A DNA stretch of 64,000 nucleotides from Thermodesulfobacteriota bacterium (lineage in GTDB: Bacteria > Desulfobacterota > GWC2-55-46). Under the pieces are notes generated by a model, which was given only the letters and a program-made list of their open reading frames with translations, was not told the DNA's origin and searched no databases. The position numbers and the translations under genes were made by a program. Below are positions 2,347 to 62,792 of this stretch, piece by piece. The stretch is from NCBI GenBank assembly GCA_030583865.1, contig CP129479.1, positions 2,504,819-2,568,818 of the forward strand, written 5' to 3'. The first letter of the stretch is position 1, and every line of letters begins with the position of its first letter.

Positions 2347-3924
2347 ATGCTCGTACACGACTACCTCATACGCTCGGCCGAACGCTTCCCCGAGAAGATT
2401 GCCCTGGTCCACGGGGGCAGGCGGACCTCGTACTCCGAGCTCCTTTCTGCGGCCTCGTCCGTCTCCGCATGGCTGAGGCACGCGGGCGTGGAAAAAGGCG
2501 ACCGGGTCGCGATACTGAACGACGACCCGAAGGAGTACATAAGCTCCTACTTCGGCATCCTCATGGCCGGCGGGATAGTCGTCGCGCTTAATACCGATAC
2601 TTCGGCCAGGACCCTCGGCGCGCAGATAAGCGGGTGCGGCGTTTCCGTGGCGATAACCCAGGCGAAGTTCATGGGCCACTTCAGGGAGCTCGGGAGGGGA
2701 GTCACCTCGCTTAAGTCGGTCGCGGCATCCGGGCTCAAGCCCTCGGACGCCGGTGACGAGGGATATGCCCTGTTCGACCTTAAGGACGCCTTCGGATTTC
2801 CGCCCGGCGCCCCGGCCCAATCCGTGCGAGCGGACATCGCGCAGGTCATCTATACGTCCGGCACGACCGGCGGATCGAGCGCGGTGACGCTCAGGCACTC
2901 CAACCTCGTGGCCAACACGGCTTCGATAATCGAGTACCTAAAGCTGGGAGAGGACGACAGCGTAATGGCCGTGCTGCCTTTTTTCTATTCCTACGGCAAC
3001 TCGGTAATGCTTACCCATATCGCGGCGGGCGGCAGGCTGGTCGCAAACCAGAACTTCATTTATCCGAACATCATACTCGGCCAGATGGCCGCCGAGGAGG
3101 TGACGGGCTTCTCCGGCGTGCCTTCGACCTATGCGATACTCCTCAACCGCTCCGCCCTAAGGCGCTACAAGTTCCCGGCCCTGAGGTACATGACCCAGGC
3201 GGGCGGGGCAATGCCGCCCAGGCTCGCGCGCGAGATGAAGGCCATGTTCCCGGAAGTGGACTTCTACATAATGTACGGCCAGACAGAGGCCTCGGCCAGG
3301 CTGTCCTACCTTGAGCCTCACGAGCTCCTGAGGAAAGCGGGCTCTGTCGGGAAGGCCATACCCGGCGTACGGCTTGAGGTGCTCGACGAAAACGGCGAGC
3401 CGGTAGGGCCGGGCGAGACCGGCGAAATAGTCGCGAGCGGGGAAAACATCATGGCCGGGTACTGGAGAGAGCCCGAGAAGACCGCGAGGGTGCTTAGAAA
3501 CGGGAAACTCTTGACAGGCGACCTCGCCAGGGTCGACGATGAGGGGTTCATCTACATAGTCAGCCGGAAAAGCGACATAATAAAATGCGGCTCCCACAGG
3601 ATCCACCCGGCTGAAATAGAAGAAGCCCTGGCCGAACATGCCGCCGTCCACGAGTCCGCTGTAGTAGGCGTGGAGGACGAGATACTCGGCGAGGCGCTGA
3701 AGGCCCTCGTCGTATTGAAGACCGGATACCAGTGCTCCCGGACCGAGCTCCTGCAGCACTGCAAGGCGCTGCTTCCGTCGTACAAGGTCCCGCAGCACAT
3801 CGATTTCATCCCGGAGCTCCCGAAGACATCGAGCGGCAAGATAAAGCGAGCGCTTCTAAAGACCCCTTCCGCGCCGGGGTCGCCAGGGTTAATCGACCAG
3901 CGAAGCCAAAAGGAGGCCGGATGA
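2347..3924 (+). CDS. AMP-forming acyl-CoA/acyl-ACP ligase, exosortase A system-associated (ligase 1)
   Basis: A 525-residue ANL superfamily adenylating enzyme that would activate a carboxylic acid as acyl-AMP and pass it to CoA or the adjacent ACP. Seen: the TSGTTG phosphate loop (about residues 170-175), the YGQTEAS motif, the TGDLA motif, and the C-terminal catalytic lysine in SSGKIKR. The phosphate loop is unusual: the normal P-K-G that follows is S-S-A (about 177-179), so the A3 lysine is missing, while ligase 2 at 4942 keeps APKGV. The stop overlaps the next gene's ATG. The substrate is unknown. Confidence 0.88.
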   Translation: MLVHDYLIRSAERFPEKIALVHGGRRTSYSELLSAASSVSAWLRHAGVEKGDRVAILNDDPKEYISSYFGILMAGGIVVALNTDTSARTLGAQISGCGVSVAITQAKFMGHFRELGRGVTSLKSVAASGLKPSDAGDEGYALFDLKDAFGFPPGAPAQSVRADIAQVIYTSGTTGGSSAVTLRHSNLVANTASIIEYLKLGEDDSVMAVLPFFYSYGNSVMLTHIAAGGRLVANQNFIYPNIILGQMAAEEVTGFSGVPSTYAILLNRSALRRYKFPALRYMTQAGGAMPPRLAREMKAMFPEVDFYIMYGQTEASARLSYLEPHELLRKAGSVGKAIPGVRLEVLDENGEPVGPGETGEIVASGENIMAGYWREPEKTARVLRNGKLLTGDLARVDDEGFIYIVSRKSDIIKCGSHRIHPAEIEEALAEHAAVHESAVVGVEDEILGEALKALVVLKTGYQCSRTELLQHCKALLPSYKVPQHIDFIPELPKTSSGKIKRALLKTPSAPGSPGLIDQRSQKEAG

Positions 3925-37585: not shown

Positions 37586-38907
37586 TGTCGCGAAATTTCA
37601 CGAAGCTCGCAGGCTTGATAAAAGACAAGAAGGCCCGCGTAGGGATTATCGGGCTGGGCTATGTGGGGCTGCCGATAGTGCTCCGTTTCTGCGACGTGGG
37701 GTACAGGGTCACCGGCTTCGACGTCGACCCTGAAAAGGTCCGGCTTTTGAGAAAAGGCAAGTCTTATATAAAGCATCTCCCTTCGGGCCTCATATCCAGG
37801 CTGGTAAAGGGCAGAAATCCCTCTTTCAAGGCCACGACCGACATGTCGGAGCTTGCCGGGATGGACGCCGTCATAATATGCGTGCCCACCCCGCTCTCTG
37901 ACAAGCGCGAGCCCGACCTCTCTTATGTAGAATCCACGGGCGCCGAAATAGCCAAACATCTCAGGCCGGGCCAGCTCGTCTCCCTCGAATCTACTACCTA
38001 TCCCGGGACGACCAGCGAACTCCTCCTTCCCATGCTCGAGGCGGGCGGGCTACGGGCGGGCAAGGACTTTTTCCTCGTCTTTTCGCCCGAAAGGGAGGAC
38101 CCCGGCAGGGTGGACTTCACCATAAAGACCACCCCCAAGATAGTCGGCGGCATAACCGCGAAATGCTCTGAGCTCGGCTCTGCCCTGTACTCCAAGATTG
38201 TCGACAGGGTTGTGCCCGTCTCCTCCACCCAGGTCGCTGAGATGACCAAGCTCCTCGAGAACATCTACAGGAGCGTCAATATCGCTATGGTGAACGAATT
38301 GAAGATGCTCTGCCACAGGATGGATATAAACATCTGGGAGGTAATCGAGGCTTCCAAGACCAAGCCCTTCGGCTTCCAGGCCTTTTACCCTGGCCCGGGC
38401 CTGGGCGGGCACTGCATACCCATAGACCCCTTTTATCTTACCTGGAAGGCCAGGGAGTACGACTTCTCGACCCGGTTCATAGAGCTTGCCGGGGAGATCA
38501 ACTCCAACATGCCCTACTACGTAGTCACTAGGGTAATGGAGGCGCTCAACGAGCGAGGAAAGAGCCTCAAGGGGTCGAAACTCCTGGTCCTCGGCATCGC
38601 ATACAAGAAGGACGTGGACGACCTGAGGGAGTCGCCGTCTTTAGAGCTCATCAGGATACTCAGGGAGAAAGGGGCGGAGGTCGACTATAACGACCCGTAC
38701 CTCCCGCTGGCGGTCAGCCACAGAAGGCACTTCAGGATGCGTTCGACCCCGCTTACGGAGGCGAATATCGGCAAGTACGACTGCGTGCTCATAGCGACCG
38801 ACCATTCGTGCTACGATTACAGGTGGATAGCGAAAAAGAGCCGGCTCGTGGTGGACACGAGGAACGCTATGGCCGGACTTAAGAGGCGGAATATAATAAA
38901 GGCCTAG
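37585..38907 (+). CDS. Nucleotide-sugar dehydrogenase (UDP-N-acetylglucosamine 6-dehydrogenase type, TviB/WbpA-like)
   Basis: A 440-residue dehydrogenase of the UDP-Glc/GlcNAc/ManNAc family, oxidising C6 to a uronic acid with NAD. Seen: IGLGYVGLP (NAD loop), CVPTPL, ESTTYPGTT, FSPERED, and the catalytic Cys in GPGLGGHCIPIDPFYL. ATG 37585 has AAGGAG 6 bases upstream; an upstream TTG is less likely. Its partner epimerase is at 39079, as in TviB/TviC pairs that make UDP-GalNAcA. Its TAG stop is the first triplet of MITE copy 2. Confidence 0.9.
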   Translation: MSRNFTKLAGLIKDKKARVGIIGLGYVGLPIVLRFCDVGYRVTGFDVDPEKVRLLRKGKSYIKHLPSGLISRLVKGRNPSFKATTDMSELAGMDAVIICVPTPLSDKREPDLSYVESTGAEIAKHLRPGQLVSLESTTYPGTTSELLLPMLEAGGLRAGKDFFLVFSPEREDPGRVDFTIKTTPKIVGGITAKCSELGSALYSKIVDRVVPVSSTQVAEMTKLLENIYRSVNIAMVNELKMLCHRMDINIWEVIEASKTKPFGFQAFYPGPGLGGHCIPIDPFYLTWKAREYDFSTRFIELAGEINSNMPYYVVTRVMEALNERGKSLKGSKLLVLGIAYKKDVDDLRESPSLELIRILREKGAEVDYNDPYLPLAVSHRRHFRMRSTPLTEANIGKYDCVLIATDHSCYDYRWIAKKSRLVVDTRNAMAGLKRRNIIKA

Positions 38908-39059
38908 CAGGTGTTGAAAACACCTGACAAGCAATCCACGATGGATTGCCAAATTGCGAAGACTAATCCAAGTCAGGCGATTTGTGAGGCCTGGACGGAT
39001 TCATTCCGGCCAGGCCGTGGTTGAAAAAGTCCAGGAAGGACTTTTTCGAAATCCTGATA
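38905..39059 (+). repeat. MITE-like repeat, copy 2
   Basis: A 155-bp copy beginning at the TAG stop of the dehydrogenase and ending in CCTGATA. The left hairpin is CAGGTGTT, loop GAA, AACACCTG. Inside are the GCAATCC...GGATTGC arm, the GGCCTGG...CAGGCC arm and AAAAAGTCC...GGACTTTTT. Flanking TA is present on both sides, and removing the element leaves GCC-TAG-GCATGG, with the TAG stop intact. The epimerase ATG follows 20 bases later with its own ribosome site outside the element. Confidence 0.88.
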
Positions 39060-40035: not shown

Positions 40036-40058
40036 CACGCCCTGCGTGCCGGAGAGGG

Positions 40059-40823
40059 TCAGCTCTTTTTCCTTCTGAGGCGGCCGTGCAGATAGGCTCC
40101 GACAAGTCCGCTCCCGAGGAGTATGAGGGTGCCTGGCTCCGGGACCCTCCTGGATTCAGCGTCATGTGAAAATTTGGCGAACATTGTAATGTCCACGTCA
40201 TCGCCGGTTTTTTTCACCTTGCTGTTATAAAAGTCGAAATGTATAACATACTCAGGGTCCAGAAGCCTCGTGTCTATAGAGAACGCCGCGTAGTACATTT
40301 CGCCGTCCAGGTAAGTCTTGAATCCGTCCATGGCCCTGTACATAGTGTCATATACCTGAGTCATTTCATCTTCATTGAAATAGAACCCATACTCGTAGAA
40401 GTAGGTCGGAAAGACCTCGTGTTGTTCCAGGTCTCCGGTGTCCCAATCGTTTGTCTCAGCCAGGTTCAGATATGTTTCGTCAATTGGCGGGGTACCGTAT
40501 GTCATATCCGATGTGACGTTTATGGTGGTTCCGTTTATTGTGAACGAGCCCAGGCTCGCACCCTCATCGGAATACTCGAGTGACGGCAGTACGGCTATAG
40601 AAAGGTAAAACGAATCCGAAATATCATTATATCTGCTCGGATTGAGATATGCATACAATGTGAAAACATCGTCGTTTGCTACGATGGTCTTTGTGCTGTA
40701 ATCGTAGCTGCCTCCCTCGATATCGAGCTGAAGGGCCGGAAGGGCCCGGCTCGTGGAAGGCGTCAGCGCCACAACCGAAGCGGCCAGCACGGCTAATACT
40801 ATATACTTGAGCTTGGCGAACAT
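40059..40823 (-). CDS. PEP-CTERM sorting domain protein A
   Basis: A 254-residue exported protein. It has a signal peptide (FAKLKYIVLAVLAASVVAL, cut near SRA-LPALQ), a beta-rich body starting LQLDIEGGSYDYSTKTIVA, and a C-terminal sorting signal: VPEPGTLILLGSGLVG (PEP motif plus membrane helix) followed by the basic tail RLRRKKS. Exosortase A would cut at the PEP motif. I chose ATG 40823, with GGAG 8-9 bases upstream. It is paralogous to protein B at 43958. Expression should depend on the sigma-54 promoter at 40867. Confidence 0.93.
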   Translation of the reverse strand: MFAKLKYIVLAVLAASVVALTPSTSRALPALQLDIEGGSYDYSTKTIVANDDVFTLYAYLNPSRYNDISDSFYLSIAVLPSLEYSDEGASLGSFTINGTTINVTSDMTYGTPPIDETYLNLAETNDWDTGDLEQHEVFPTYFYEYGFYFNEDEMTQVYDTMYRAMDGFKTYLDGEMYYAAFSIDTRLLDPEYVIHFDFYNSKVKKTGDDVDITMFAKFSHDAESRRVPEPGTLILLGSGLVGAYLHGRLRRKKS

Positions 40824-43919: not shown

Positions 43920-43957
43920 TATTACCCGAGGCTGAAATTAATGCGACTTGAAGCCTG

Positions 43958-44704
43958 TCAGCTCCTCTTTTTTCTCATGCGGCCGTGCACATAGAAGCCT
44001 ACGAGGCCGCTTCCGAGGAGTATGAGGGTGCCGGGCTCAGGCACCTTCCTTGAAGACTCCGCATCGTGCGAGAACGGGGCAAACATGGAGATATCGATGT
44101 CGCCACCCCTTTTAACCTTCGTGTTGTAAAGGTCGAAGTGGAGGACATAGTCGGAGGCAAGCCGGGTGGTGTCGATTGAGAATGAAACGTAATACATGAG
44201 GCCGTTTTCAGTGTCGATTGTCCCTGTGATAGCCCGGTCCTGGGTATTGTACCTGGCGGTAGTGTCGTTCCCGTCGAACTGGAACTCGTGCTCGTAGAAG
44301 TAGGTCGGGAAAACGCCGTGGGGCGCCAGGTCGCCTCCGTCGAAGGTGTTATAGTACTCCTCGACTGGCGGGGTCCCGTAATACATGTCAGAAGTTACAT
44401 TGTAGCTTGTCCCGTTGAGGCTGAAAGACCCCAGGTCAAAGCCGGCCGGGTCATACTCGAGCGACGGCAGGACAGCGACCGAGAGATAGAACGAATCGCT
44501 CAAGAGGTTATAGTTATTTGTGCTCAGGAAGGCGTAAAGCGTGAAGGGGTCGGAGTTGGCCACTATAGTCTCTGTTGTGAAATCATAGCTCCCCCCTTCT
44601 ATATCGAGCTGCAGGGCAGGGACCGCATGGCTTACGGTCGGCTTGAACCCCAGCATCAGAACGGCGGCCACGGCCAGCATGGAATATTTTATCTTGGCAA
44701 GCAT
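43958..44704 (-). CDS. PEP-CTERM sorting domain protein B
   Basis: A 248-residue paralog of protein A. Signal peptide MLAKIKYSMLAVAAVLMLGF, cut near SHA-VPALQ; body starting LQLDIEGGSYDFTTETIVA; C-terminal VPEPGTLILLGSGLVGF with basic tail RMRKKRS. The cores share YGTPPxxE and the segment before the anchor (FSHDAESSRK). ATG 44704 has GGGGGAAG upstream; a longer frame to 44782 would run through the promoter and is rejected. Anchored to or released from the envelope by exosortase A. Confidence 0.93.
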   Translation of the reverse strand: MLAKIKYSMLAVAAVLMLGFKPTVSHAVPALQLDIEGGSYDFTTETIVANSDPFTLYAFLSTNNYNLLSDSFYLSVAVLPSLEYDPAGFDLGSFSLNGTSYNVTSDMYYGTPPVEEYYNTFDGGDLAPHGVFPTYFYEHEFQFDGNDTTARYNTQDRAITGTIDTENGLMYYVSFSIDTTRLASDYVLHFDLYNTKVKRGGDIDISMFAPFSHDAESSRKVPEPGTLILLGSGLVGFYVHGRMRKKRS

Positions 44705-47645: not shown

Positions 47646-47797
47646 TATAAGGATGTTGAAGAAACCCTTCCCGGACTTTTCAACCACGGCTTGTCCGGAA
47701 TGAACCCGTCCAAGCCCCACTGCCCGGCTTGACAGTCTTCGCAATTTGGCAAATCCATGCGTGGATTGCCTGGCAGGTGTTTTTCAATACCCTGCTA
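47646..47797 (-). repeat. MITE-like repeat, copy 3
   Basis: A 152-bp copy in the same orientation as gspK and gspL. It begins with the TAG stop of gspK and ends in CCTTATA 17 bases before the gspL GTG. The hairpin at its start is partly decayed (GGGTATTG against AACACCTGCC). Removing it leaves TAG-AGAGGG, so the old gspK stop and gspL ribosome site would be adjacent. Confidence 0.85.
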
Positions 47798-48748
47798 AAG
47801 CCTTCTCCAGTAGAGGACGCCCTTTTCTGCCTCGAAGACCGCCTCTATCTCCCGCGAGACCTCGCCTGACGTGGCCCTCGAATGGACGCTGAATATCCGG
47901 CTCTCAACTTTTATGCCGTCCATGAGCCCGTAGCCTGCCTCCTCGAAACCCGGCACTTTCATTATTTCGGACCTGTCCCTGAAAGGCCTCTCCATCCTCC
48001 GCTTTATGAGGTTTCTGGCGAGCTCTTCGGTCATCTCATCCGAAAGGGCGAGCAGCACCTCCAATGGGGCGGTGTTCACGTTAATGAGCCCGTCAGTATT
48101 ATAGGGCGAAACAAAGGGCTTTAGCATTGAAAGCACCTCGGGCGAAAAGCCCTTTATCATCAGGAGCTCTCCAATGGAGCCCGGATACCCGTTCCTCGCC
48201 TCATAGGGTGATTTGAGCCTCAGGTAATGCTCAGGGCCCTCTGCCCCGTATGCCCTCGGCTGGTCGTCGCCGTCGATCCAGTCCGCCAGGGCGTCCTCAA
48301 GCCCTTCGCGGCCCTTTATCCCCAACCCTTCAAGGAGCCTTGAGAATACCGCGTGCGTCCTGCCGTTTTCGACACCGTTGGGGTAGACCGTCCGTAACGA
48401 GGCCTTTCCAAGCTCGTCATGCACCCTTACGACTACCGACGCCCCCCCTTCCGAGGCGGTAAAGAGGAGCCCGTCCTTATCAATCGCGATATTCGGCCCG
48501 GACTTGAGCATCTCTTTAAGGGCCTCTTGGGCTAGCTCGACCCCCTTGCCGGCCAGGAGAGCGGCCCTCTGTCCCTCCGCGAAATTCGAGGCCCTGGATG
48601 TGGAGACGTGCACCCTGTAGACGAACTCCGTCACGATAGCCGCGAGTACCGCGAGGATAACGAGCGCGGCTATAAGTACAAAACCGCCCTCCACCGGTCT
48701 CCGCACCCCGCTCACGGCGGCGCTCCTCTTCCGCGAGGGAGAGTTCAT
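47795..48748 (-). CDS. gspK: Type II secretion minor pseudopilin GspK
   Basis: A 317-residue minor pseudopilin. The prepilin leader ends at EGG and the mature start is FVLIAALVILAVLAAIV, with Ala where other pseudopilins have Glu5, as is normal for GspK. The body has ALADWIDGDDQPRAYGAEGPEHY, LKPFVSPYNTDGLINVNTAPLEVL, typical GspK. It caps the pseudopilus tip with GspI and GspJ. The ATG overlaps the gspJ stop (ATGA). Confidence 0.93.
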   Translation of the reverse strand: MNSPSRKRSAAVSGVRRPVEGGFVLIAALVILAVLAAIVTEFVYRVHVSTSRASNFAEGQRAALLAGKGVELAQEALKEMLKSGPNIAIDKDGLLFTASEGGASVVVRVHDELGKASLRTVYPNGVENGRTHAVFSRLLEGLGIKGREGLEDALADWIDGDDQPRAYGAEGPEHYLRLKSPYEARNGYPGSIGELLMIKGFSPEVLSMLKPFVSPYNTDGLINVNTAPLEVLLALSDEMTEELARNLIKRRMERPFRDRSEIMKVPGFEEAGYGLMDGIKVESRIFSVHSRATSGEVSREIEAVFEAEKGVLYWRRL

Positions 48749-49518
48749 CTTATCATGGTCCTCGAAAGGGCGGTAAACTCCCTTCCGTCCCTAAAGACCA
48801 CCCTGGCCCTTACGGCAAGGGGGAGCTTCTTTTCAAGTGTAGCCTCCCATGCGTTGGCCCAGGACGTGCCGTTACTGTAGCTCAACTCGAAAGCCTCGAT
48901 GCCGGAGAGCGCCTCCGAGACGAACCTTTCGCCTATAAGCGGGTTCCACGTCTCCCTGTAAAGGGCAAGCCCCCCTTCCCCATGCTTAGCGAAGTAGCCT
49001 ATTGCCATTAGGTCCGTGGAAGGGGCTACCCCCCTTTGAGGCCTTGATGAGAAAGATGAATAATATGTGAACTCCAGGGCAGAAGCCCCTGACCTCGTCT
49101 TCCCGGAAAAGGCGGAACGGGGATCTTCGGGGCTGAAGTACGCGGAGTTGACCTCGCCCGAAAGCCTATCAAGGAACATCCCGGCCTCCAGGTCCCTCTC
49201 GAGCGAACTACCGGTCCTTTCGCCCGCGCCGAGTACGCTCATGAGGACGCCGTAAAGCGAAAGGAGCGCAATAGAGCCGACAGCGAGCGCAACGAGCACC
49301 TCTATGAGCGTAAACCCGCTATTCCTAACAGGATGTTGAAAAAATCCTTCCTGGACTTTTTCAACCACGGCTTGGCCGGAATGAATCCGTCCAAGCCTTA
49401 CAAATTGCTCGACCTGGATAGTCTTCGCAATTTGGCAATCCATCCGTGGATTGCCAAGCAGGGTGTTTTTCAACACCCTGCTAATAAAAGGTATGGAGCG
49501 TAAGGCTCTTGGATTCAT
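48745..49518 (-). CDS. gspJ: Type II secretion minor pseudopilin GspJ with repeat-lengthened leader
   Basis: A minor pseudopilin: cleavage site NSG-FTLIEVLVALAVGSIALL and a GspJ-like body. Its frame starts at ATG 49518 inside gspI (MNPRALRSIPFI), then runs without a stop through 52 codons of MITE copy 4, and rejoins at RNSGFTLIEV. Without the insert the leader would be a normal 16 residues; with it, 68. Alternatives are an ATG (MDCQIAK) or a GTG (VVEKVQ) inside the element, leaders of about 42 and 17 residues. No start codon exists between element and cleavage site, so translation must begin in or before the repeat. Confidence 0.85.
   Translation of the reverse strand: MNPRALRSIPFISRVLKNTLLGNPRMDCQIAKTIQVEQFVRLGRIHSGQAVVEKVQEGFFQHPVRNSGFTLIEVLVALAVGSIALLSLYGVLMSVLGAGERTGSSLERDLEAGMFLDRLSGEVNSAYFSPEDPRSAFSGKTRSGASALEFTYYSSFSSRPQRGVAPSTDLMAIGYFAKHGEGGLALYRETWNPLIGERFVSEALSGIEAFELSYSNGTSWANAWEATLEKKLPLAVRARVVFRDGREFTALSRTMIR
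49326..49483 (-). repeat. MITE-like repeat, copy 4 (best-preserved)
   Basis: A 158-bp copy. Read on the - strand it begins TAGCAGGGTGTTGAAAAA and ends TTTTTCAACATCCTGTTA. The reverse complement of the end (TAACAGGATGTTGAAAAA) matches the start at 16 of 18 bases, including TA at each end. It has four internal hairpins: GCAGGGTGTT/AACACCCTGC, GGCAATCCA/TGGATTGCC, GGCTTGG/CCAAGCC and AAAAGTCC/GGATTTTT. Its first triplet is the gspI stop. Net insertion is 156 bp (52 codons). Confidence 0.92.
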
Positions 49519-49825
49519 CCCAGCTTATCCTTACATCCAGCCGCTTAAGTCCGGGGAGCTCCGTATCCAACGGCTGCATCTCCCACGTGAAAGTCTTGAA
49601 GTCGCCTTCAAACGATCCATTCATGATGCCAGGCGGCCCGTAGAGCGAGACCTCCTCTGCCTTGAACCTGCCGAGTATGGAAGCGGCTACAAGGTCGCTT
49701 GTCTCGGAAGCCGCCTTAAGGTGGTAATTGAAGGCGGAAACGAGCGTCACTACCGCCCCCGCCAGTATGGCGAGGCTTATCATCACCTCAAGGAGGGTAA
49801 ACCCTTTTTCCCCCTTTTCAGGCAT
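49481..49825 (-). CDS. gspI: Type II secretion minor pseudopilin GspI
   Basis: A 114-residue pseudopilin with a short leader MPEKGEKG and mature start FTLLEVMISLAILAGAVVTL (Glu5 present). The length and MQPLDTELPGLKRLDVRISW tail match GspI. ATG overlaps the gspH stop by 8 bases. Its TAG stop coincides with the first triplet of MITE copy 4. Confidence 0.92.
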   Translation of the reverse strand: MPEKGEKGFTLLEVMISLAILAGAVVTLVSAFNYHLKAASETSDLVAASILGRFKAEEVSLYGPPGIMNGSFEGDFKTFTWEMQPLDTELPGLKRLDVRISWDESKSLTLHTFY

Positions 49826-61367: not shown

Positions 61368-62792
61368 TTATTCATTACCGGCTTTCCTTTCCTTGCCGTA
61401 TAACCTCTCTTCGCAGTCGGGGCATATGCTGTGAGTAAATTCAGCTTCGGAATGTTTCTCGATATATTTTTCCATACTCGACCAGTTGCCCTCTTCATCT
61501 CGTATTCTTTTACAGCTGGCGCATATGGGGAGAAGCCCGCTTAATGTCTTTATCCTGCCGAGCGCTTCCTGCAGCTCGCTAATCAGCTTTTTCTGCTCGT
61601 TTTCCAGCTCTTTTTTTTCGGTTATATCCTGTATCGTGCCCGTGACGGCCACTGCCCTGCCGTCCCTCATATCCGGCTCGCCTATTCCATGCAGATATTT
61701 CATGCGCCCCAGCCCGGAGATTATCCTGAATTCCACCTCGTAGCGGACCCCCTTGAGCGCCTCCTCCAGGCAGGTCTTCGCCAATGTCCTGTCCTCCGGA
61801 TAAATCATGCCAATCAATTTCGCGTAGCTTATGGGAGTACCCCGGGGCAGCTCAAAAATATCATAACTCTCTTGCGACCCGGAAAAATTATCCGAAGCGA
61901 TATCCCAGGCCCAGTCTCCGAAATGCGCCGTCTTCTGCGCATGTTCAAGCTCGGCGATGAGCTTTTTCTGTTCATTTTCCAGCTCTTTTTTTTCAGTTAT
62001 GTCCTGTATCGTGCCTATCAAGGATTTTCTGCCGTTCTGGATCTTGAGCTCGCCTATGGCCTGAATGTACTTTAGCTTCCCCGTCCCGGAAATTATCCTG
62101 AATTCCTCCCTGTTTAAGACCCCCCCGAGTGCCTGCTCCATGGATTTCCTGACCAGCGGCCTGTCCTCCGGATGGATCATCTCCATCAATCTCGCATAAT
62201 TTACGGGAGTCCCTACCGGCAGTTCAACAATATAGTAGCTCTCCTGAGAGCCGAAAAAATTATCCGACTCGATATCCCACACCCAGTTGCCGAGATGCGC
62301 TCTCCTTTGCGCGTACTGAAGCTCGCCTATGAGCATACGCTGCTCGTTTTCCAGCTCTTTTCTCTCCGTCAGGTCCTGTATGGTGCCGTTCAAGGCTACC
62401 GGTTTTCCGTTACGGCTTTCCAATTCACCCATGACCTGGACATGCTTTACATATCCGTTCCGGGTCTTTATCCTGAATTCAAATTTGTAAACGGCTCCCC
62501 TCAGGCCGTCTTCTATCGCGTCCCTGACCAGCGCCCTGTCCTCGGGATGCACGAACCCCATCATCCCGCTTAAAGGCATCGGGGTGCCGGGAGGCATCTC
62601 GAAAATCCTGTATGCCTCCCGCGATCCGTAAAAATTGTCCCGTTCGATATCCCATGTCCAGTTTGCGAGGTGCGATATCTTCTGCGCATACTCGAGCAGG
62701 CGCTGGCTCTCCTTGAGTTTTTTTTCCACGCCTTCAAGCTCGCCTATGCGCTTGACCAGCTCATCTCTCGGTTTTTCATCGAACTGGGCCAT
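61368..62792 (-). CDS. Triple PAS-domain protein with C-terminal zinc motif, no output domain
   Basis: A 474-residue soluble protein. A coiled coil (about 1-25) is followed by three PAS_3-type domains (about 30-145, 160-275, 285-405), each ending in the linker TIQDITEKKELENEQ or close to it. The tail has CASCKRIRDEEGNW and CPDC, a pattern seen in many deltaproteobacterial sensor proteins. No kinase, GGDEF or HTH domain is present. The repeats also match at the DNA level, so they arose by recent duplication. It probably senses a ligand and passes the signal by protein contact. Confidence 0.85.
   Translation of the reverse strand: MAQFDEKPRDELVKRIGELEGVEKKLKESQRLLEYAQKISHLANWTWDIERDNFYGSREAYRIFEMPPGTPMPLSGMMGFVHPEDRALVRDAIEDGLRGAVYKFEFRIKTRNGYVKHVQVMGELESRNGKPVALNGTIQDLTERKELENEQRMLIGELQYAQRRAHLGNWVWDIESDNFFGSQESYYIVELPVGTPVNYARLMEMIHPEDRPLVRKSMEQALGGVLNREEFRIISGTGKLKYIQAIGELKIQNGRKSLIGTIQDITEKKELENEQKKLIAELEHAQKTAHFGDWAWDIASDNFSGSQESYDIFELPRGTPISYAKLIGMIYPEDRTLAKTCLEEALKGVRYEVEFRIISGLGRMKYLHGIGEPDMRDGRAVAVTGTIQDITEKKELENEQKKLISELQEALGRIKTLSGLLPICASCKRIRDEEGNWSSMEKYIEKHSEAEFTHSICPDCEERLYGKERKAGNE

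Follow-up and report, generated by a model that had tools for sequence, protein, structure and literature searches.

In-frame insertion of a MITE-like hairpin repeat in the GspJ prepilin leader at a gspI/gspJ overlap

A mobile hairpin repeat lies in the overlap of gspI and gspJ, two minor pseudopilin genes of a type II secretion cluster in an uncultured deltaproteobacterium, and contributes 52 codons to the gspJ frame. We consider it probable, at roughly 0.68, that a MITE-like repeat that duplicates NTAG struck the end of gspI, and that the resulting extension of the GspJ leader is tolerated, with translation starting at the old ATG and the leader being cleaved off. The repeat at this site is confirmed as a real mobile-repeat insertion and is not a product of chance, because the one-contig, 2.75-Mb genome (G000) holds 37 matches to it at E<=1e-5, three congeners hold 14 to 32 strong matches each, and the element folds far better than shuffled sequences. 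The window, by which we mean the whole stretch of 64,000 nucleotides that was analyzed, carries the following features at the site.

48745..49518, minus strand: gspJ, a 257-aa type II secretion minor pseudopilin; codons 13-64 (52 codons) come from the insertion
49481..49825, minus strand: gspI, a 114-aa type II secretion minor pseudopilin, named from NCBIfam gspI, Pfam N_methyl and gene order
49329..49480, minus strand: repeat copy at gspI/gspJ, a 152-bp MITE-like hairpin repeat running from CAGGGTGTTGAAAAA to TTTTTCAACATCCTG
49481..49484, minus strand: left-hand TTAG, one of the two copies made by target duplication; its TAG is the gspI stop codon
49325..49328, minus strand: right TTAG flank, the second copy of the target duplication; relatives have one NNAG at the site
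49483..49518, minus strand: original start of gspJ with its 12 initial codons (MNPRALRSIPFI), which lie across the 3' end of gspI; conserved in the congeners G005 and G004 as MRPKA/VLRSIPFI
49297..49326, minus strand: prepilin cleavage region, RNSG then FTLIEV, following the insertion; matches N_methyl / IV_pilin_GFxxxE

The insertion at the gspI/gspJ overlap

Both gspI and gspJ are intact frames that overlap by 38 bp. The original prediction had placed a repeat copy within that overlap and had read it as an in-frame insertion in a prepilin leader, and its coordinates, frames and sequences all held. The filled site is ordered TTTTA-TTAG-[CAGGG...CATCCTG]-TTAG-GAATAGC, and the net gain is 156 bp (the 152-bp element plus a 4-bp TTAG duplication), or 52 codons read without a stop by gspJ, between MNPRALRSIPFI and RNSG|FTLIEV. 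Because gspJ starts 38 bases upstream in another frame, the 156 bp came to lie after gspJ codon 12.

The element is missing from the orthologous site in two congeners. The empty site reads TTTTATCAGGAATAGC in G005, where GspI ends in HTFYQE* and GspJ starts with MRPKALRSIPFIRNSGFTFIEV, and TTTTATCGGGAATAGC in G004, where GspJ starts with MRPKVLRSIPFIGNSGFTLIEV. By sequence comparison, the leaders without the element are MRPKALRSIPFI-RNSGFTFIEV in G005 and MRPKVLRSIPFI-GNSGFTLIEV in G004, and the leader of G000, when joined across the insert as MNPRALRSIPFI-RNSG, matches MRPKALRSIPFIRNSG of G005 and MRPKVLRSIPFIGNSG of G004. Thus, removal of the insert restores the 16-residue leader that had been proposed, and gspJ begins in both relatives where the prediction had placed its start. 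The frame is unlikely to have arisen through an error of sequencing or assembly, and this explanation was rejected: G000 is a one-contig genome, and an independent metagenome-assembled genome, G001, has beside gspI a copy of equal length that is 97.4% identical and without an indel.

How gspI came to end at the repeat is more involved. A TAG at 49483-49481 does stop gspI, as had been claimed, but the TAG belongs to the target-derived TTAG flank and not to the body of the element. In relatives, the gspI codon at the target is CAG or CGG and the stop lies two codons further on (GAATAG). GspI accordingly ends in HTFY* in G000, and only the final QE of the G005 protein is lost. That a TTAG stood at the target before insertion is presumed, and the CAG or CGG of relatives counts against it. 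Judged from these alignments, the gspI stop would have needed either a C-to-T change before the insertion or an insertion that itself made the stop.

The repeat family and its position at stop codons

The element is 152 bp long (CAGGG...CCTG), a unit too short for a transposase gene, and its terminal inverted repeats, CAGGGTGTTGAAAAA and TTTTTCAACATCCTG, are imperfect (14/15 matching) and conserved across copies. It folds into five tandem hairpins, at -80.7 kcal/mol as RNA (z -9.6) and -51.6 kcal/mol as DNA (z -10.9), and no shuffle equals either value. All five further genus members that were examined carry matches, as do additional genera in the family. Bacterial MITEs are in general short and noncoding, with terminal inverted repeats, target duplication, many copies and no internal transposase; this element, too, is short, transposase free and present in many copies, with terminal inverted repeats and a target duplication at its empty sites. 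We call it MITE-like because no insertion sequence with the same ends was found among the sites listed for ten genomes; in particular, the sites listed for G000 and nine relatives included no autonomous partner, sought as an inward-facing pair of end motifs 0.8 to 3 kb apart, although one may lie beyond the listed sites or have been lost. REP/BIME and ERIC-like repeats are likewise rich in hairpins and adjoin gene ends, but the element described here is mobile as a complete 152-bp unit that has terminal inverted repeats and duplicates NTAG, and Rfam gave no family at gathering level across 36-54 kb of the window. A consensus scan found neither promoter nor terminator within the element.

A further difference from generic MITEs lies in the first hairpin. 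Often, in a given copy, the inner arm of that hairpin is complementary to the flank immediately outside the same copy (for example, CTAACAG..CTGTTAG, CCGAGCAG..CTGCTCGG and TTATCAG..CTGATAA). Such copies are L040, L041, L043, L044, L047, L049, L058 and L063 in G000 and L082, L091, L094 and L096 in relatives. It is as if the flank had been copied into the hairpin by quasi-palindrome correction or as if pairing had guided insertion, and we know of no ordinary MITE whose left hairpin arm matches the landing flank. Other repeats were met along the way. G000 has a second abundant repeat end, CAGGCTGCTGAAAAA, at about 50 sites, which resembles the end motif of the element and mostly lacks an inverted partner. 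A separate dispersed repeat of about 75 bp (CTCATTCCTCATTTTTCGAATCCTTGCACC...) sits in the left flank of copy L041 and has many matches in G001, G004 and G005. Within the window, positions 61562-62387 hold three tandem units of about 372 bp, 72 to 84% identical, in the minus-strand frame at 61368-62792, and these are probably repeated sensor-type domains. Positions 40058-40436 and 43957-44335 hold two similar genes 3.9 kb apart, with C termini that read like PEP-CTERM sorting signals (VPEPGTLILLGSGLVG).

The element duplicates NTAG. A TA duplication had been proposed, but TA is followed by a conserved G at either end of the element and empty sites carry a single NTAG. Empty sites were sought by comparing the joined flanks of 12 copies with three relatives. 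At L046, a single GATATTAGATT in G005 and G004 corresponds to TTAG...TTAG in the filled site, and at L050, a single GGAATAGGG in three relatives corresponds to ATAG...ATAG. An NTAG duplication also fits L064 and L049, save for one changed base, and the empty sites of L055, L041, L060 and gspI are ambiguous.

Many copies sit exactly on stop codons. Besides the copy at gspI/gspJ, the window contains three others, and all four (4/4) have the left edge on a TAG stop.

47650..47798, minus strand: second copy, separating gspK from gspL and placed exactly on the TAG that stops gspK
38905..39056, plus strand: third copy, left edge exactly on a TAG stop; relatives have TGA at that codon
9741..9894, plus strand: fourth copy, left edge exactly on a TAG stop; relatives have TAA or TAG at that codon

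Relatives have a stop codon (TAG, TGA or TAA) exactly at the codon that now adjoins the element at L049, L050, L057, L060, L055 and gspK. For example, G004 is without the gspK copy, and there gspK ends in the same CTT TAG with the ATG of gspL directly next. Stop offsets were counted within 60 bases for 60 copies from four species, a few of them mutually orthologous, in frames of at least 100 open codons. The left edge lay at offset 0 in 15 of the 60 copies, against at most 1 copy at any other offset. The right edge lay at offset 0 in 6 of the 60, against at most 3 at any other offset, although some of these frames may be spurious antisense, as the one at L047 looks to be.

Since so many copies lie exactly on stop codons, insertion at the end of gspI is the usual behavior of this repeat family, and not the one-off coincidence that had been implied. 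The gspI copy fits the rule, except that relatives have CAG or CGG instead of a stop at that codon. Either targeting or survival of harmless insertions would account for the excess. It is conceivable, if doubtful, that the transposition system itself prefers stop codons (NTAG and possibly TGA or TAA contexts) and spares the upstream gene by duplicating its stop or putting it back. A literature search on insertion at stop codons gave no usable report.

Translation and fate of the extended GspJ

How the insertion stayed in frame needs no special explanation. Among 54 near-full-length copies, the frame used at gspJ is open in 14 and the net insertion is divisible by 3 in 33, so an in-frame outcome was unremarkable once the site had been hit. 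No second true fusion within a gene was found among the 54; gspJ stands alone. Copies L045 and L083 are open in frame into the genes that follow them, which we call hrcA-like and aminotransferase-like from their translations; both were tried as in-gene insertions and rejected, as both genes appear to have their own start past the element. At L045 (G000:C1:851842-851997), the frame is open into the hrcA-like gene, in the same frame as at gspJ, and an ATG 7 codons before the element would extend that gene.

The identity of the two proteins rests on domain matches. GspJ matches Pfam T2SSJ (PF11612, 2.9e-9) and N_methyl (PF07963, 6.9e-9, residues 65-89), both above the Pfam cutoffs. NCBIfam gspJ (6.1e-7) and, for GspI, NCBIfam gspI (9.6e-10) score below their curated cutoffs, and GspI also has a Pfam N_methyl match. 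Despite the scores, gspJ and gspI are the natural names. The neighboring frames in the window, namely, gspC-F, a gspH-like prepilin gene, gspK and a gspL-like gene, are all intact.

In our preferred reading, a nonautonomous hairpin repeat, inserting at NTAG and duplicating it, would have jumped into the TTAG at the end of gspI. The TAG stop may already have been present through the C-to-T change, or the change may have come with the insertion, and GspI would have given up its two terminal residues. The element itself, its absence from two relatives, the NTAG duplication at other copies and the frequent landing on stop codons support this directly. Translation would begin, as before, at the conserved ATG and in coupling with that of gspI, giving a precursor whose cytoplasmic leader has 68 residues; the Gly at the cleavage site is unchanged, and processing there would then yield normal mature GspJ. 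Such a leader, removed by prepilin peptidase, is the most likely predicted product, and the figure of 68 residues given in the original prediction is obtained when counting from the conserved ATG. The insertion would be tolerated because its net length is a multiple of three, the frame through the element is free of stops and the leader is removed by the peptidase. What speaks against the reading is the length itself. The leader has 16 residues in the element-free relatives, and 68 is far outside the 6 to 26 residues of studied pilin leaders as given in the portion of PMC4471445 available, which also describes shortening as harmless in some systems and contains no precedent for a leader of 68 residues. 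Moreover, the RNA fold predicted for the insert (-80.7 kcal/mol) could slow translation or attract RNase.

Alternatively, GspJ might be reinitiated inside the element, at the GTG of codon 51 (VVEKVQEGFFQHPVRNSG) or the ATG of codon 26, with the original 12 codons read only as gspI. We hold such a start, which had also been raised in the original prediction, to be possible but unlikely. The GTG would give a leader of ordinary length (18 residues), and strong hairpins stand between the old ATG and the mature part of GspJ. The ribosome-binding context is weaker inside the element, however: Shine-Dalgarno pairing among the in-frame starts of gspJ is best at the original ATG (-5.9 kcal/mol), as opposed to -3.1 at GTG51 and -1.5 at ATG26. 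Both internal codons also lie in or beside hairpins, and relatives have kept the old start together with the gspI overlap.

The copy in G001 bears on the same question. There, gspI is on contig C21 (5.3 kb) and gspJ is on C12, each joined through an element copy to foreign far flanks: on C21, gspI is connected to what in G000 is the right flank of a different copy, L042, and on C12, gspJ is connected to DNA that in G005 lies elsewhere. The gspJ frame on C12 is without the old start and has only element sequence upstream. The split may reflect recombination between copies or a repeat-induced misjoin. If the split is real, gspJ of G001 must start inside the element, which favors reinitiation; if the contig is misjoined, that support falls away. 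Because the two genes sit on two contigs in G001, proof of the in-frame arrangement comes from a single genome. A further dispersed repeat, about 170 bp long, lies upstream of the element on C12 (L010, about 2600-2775, minus strand), and G000 holds up to 16 matches to it.

Whether the extended gene is functional can be judged from its substitutions. Downstream of the insert, gspJ has a dN/dS of 0.21 between G000 and G001 and 0.17 between G000 and G005, and gspI and gspK range from 0.09 to 0.22. By these ratios, gspJ downstream of the insertion is under purifying selection. A second type II secretion-like cluster is found at G000:C1:1304600-1306800 (L172:6638-8801), with four gspG-J-like prepilin genes in a row and a gspJ leader without a repeat insertion. 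Because the second cluster has its own gspG-J, loss of the repeat-bearing GspJ might be tolerated, and together with a leader far longer than those known, it raises the idea that gspJ is damaged and decaying while the other cluster does the job. We think this improbable, as gspJ contains no stop or frameshift, its dN/dS of about 0.2 is near that of neighboring genes and of element-free relatives, and the frames of gspC-F, gspH, gspI and gspK-L in the window are intact.

Finally, the gspI/gspJ copy differs between G000 and G001 at only 4 of 152 positions, without gaps, while five other copies at shared sites are 83 to 91% identical with 1 to 9 gaps (96 differences in 743 aligned bases) and the flanking genes have a synonymous divergence of 0.2 to 0.3. 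The low divergence hints at constraint. Keeping the frame would explain it, but so would gene conversion or parallel recent insertion. That the element has been co-opted, its peptide or RNA structure regulating GspJ or tuning gspI:gspJ stoichiometry, would suit the low divergence but is very unlikely. Of the 4 differences, 3 alter an amino acid, so that conservation of the peptide itself is not evident; the same data would follow if indels were avoided to keep the frame, or from gene conversion or a recent parallel insertion; and it is in doubt whether this copy is linked to gspJ in G001.

Relation to other translated repeats

The conversion of a repeat to protein sequence in frame is clear here but not unprecedented, and most known cases come from Rickettsia and Coxiella. 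The Rickettsia palindromic elements (RPEs) were reportedly described by Ogata et al. (2000, 2002), whose work a later review summarizes (PMC10969869). RPEs are palindromic, measure about 150 bp and have one frame free of stops; they lie in frame in protein genes and are translated, and they occur outside genes as well. The gspJ repeat is also about 150 bp, palindromic, stop free in the frame used and in frame in a protein gene. RPEs, however, are found in many genes, whereas only 1 of the 54 near-full-length copies here is truly in frame in a gene and most are intergenic or on stop codons. Moreover, the hosts differ, Rickettsia in one case and an uncultured deltaproteobacterium in the other, and the likeness drawn here is one of description. 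In Coxiella burnetii, QMITE1 and QMITE2 are present at about 50 to 80 copies per genome and form strong stem-loops. Certain copies provide a gene with its final residues or with no more than its stop codon (ubiB and CBU_2020), enhC is extended in frame by QMITE2, and the authors report none that affects the 5' end of a gene of known function (PMC5896051). The direct repeats of QMITEs are variable in sequence (2-3 or 7-11 nt), as opposed to NTAG here (PMC5896051), and the gspI/gspJ element lies at a 5' end, inside a gene overlap. What is distinctive here is that 5'-end insertion in a gene overlap combined with a family-wide habit of sitting exactly on stop codons.

Why the insertion was tolerated is visible, because the part of the protein that holds the inserted peptide is normally removed. 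The case is unusually clean, since empty sites are available and the point of insertion is explained by the stop-codon habit of the family, and it lends itself directly to testing the upper length of a prepilin leader. If the family does prefer stop codons, the preference would be a built-in safe-site strategy, and gspI/gspJ would be the one case in which an overlap made the safe site coding. The case also shows that, where operon genes overlap, an insertion that does no harm to one of them can reach the next.
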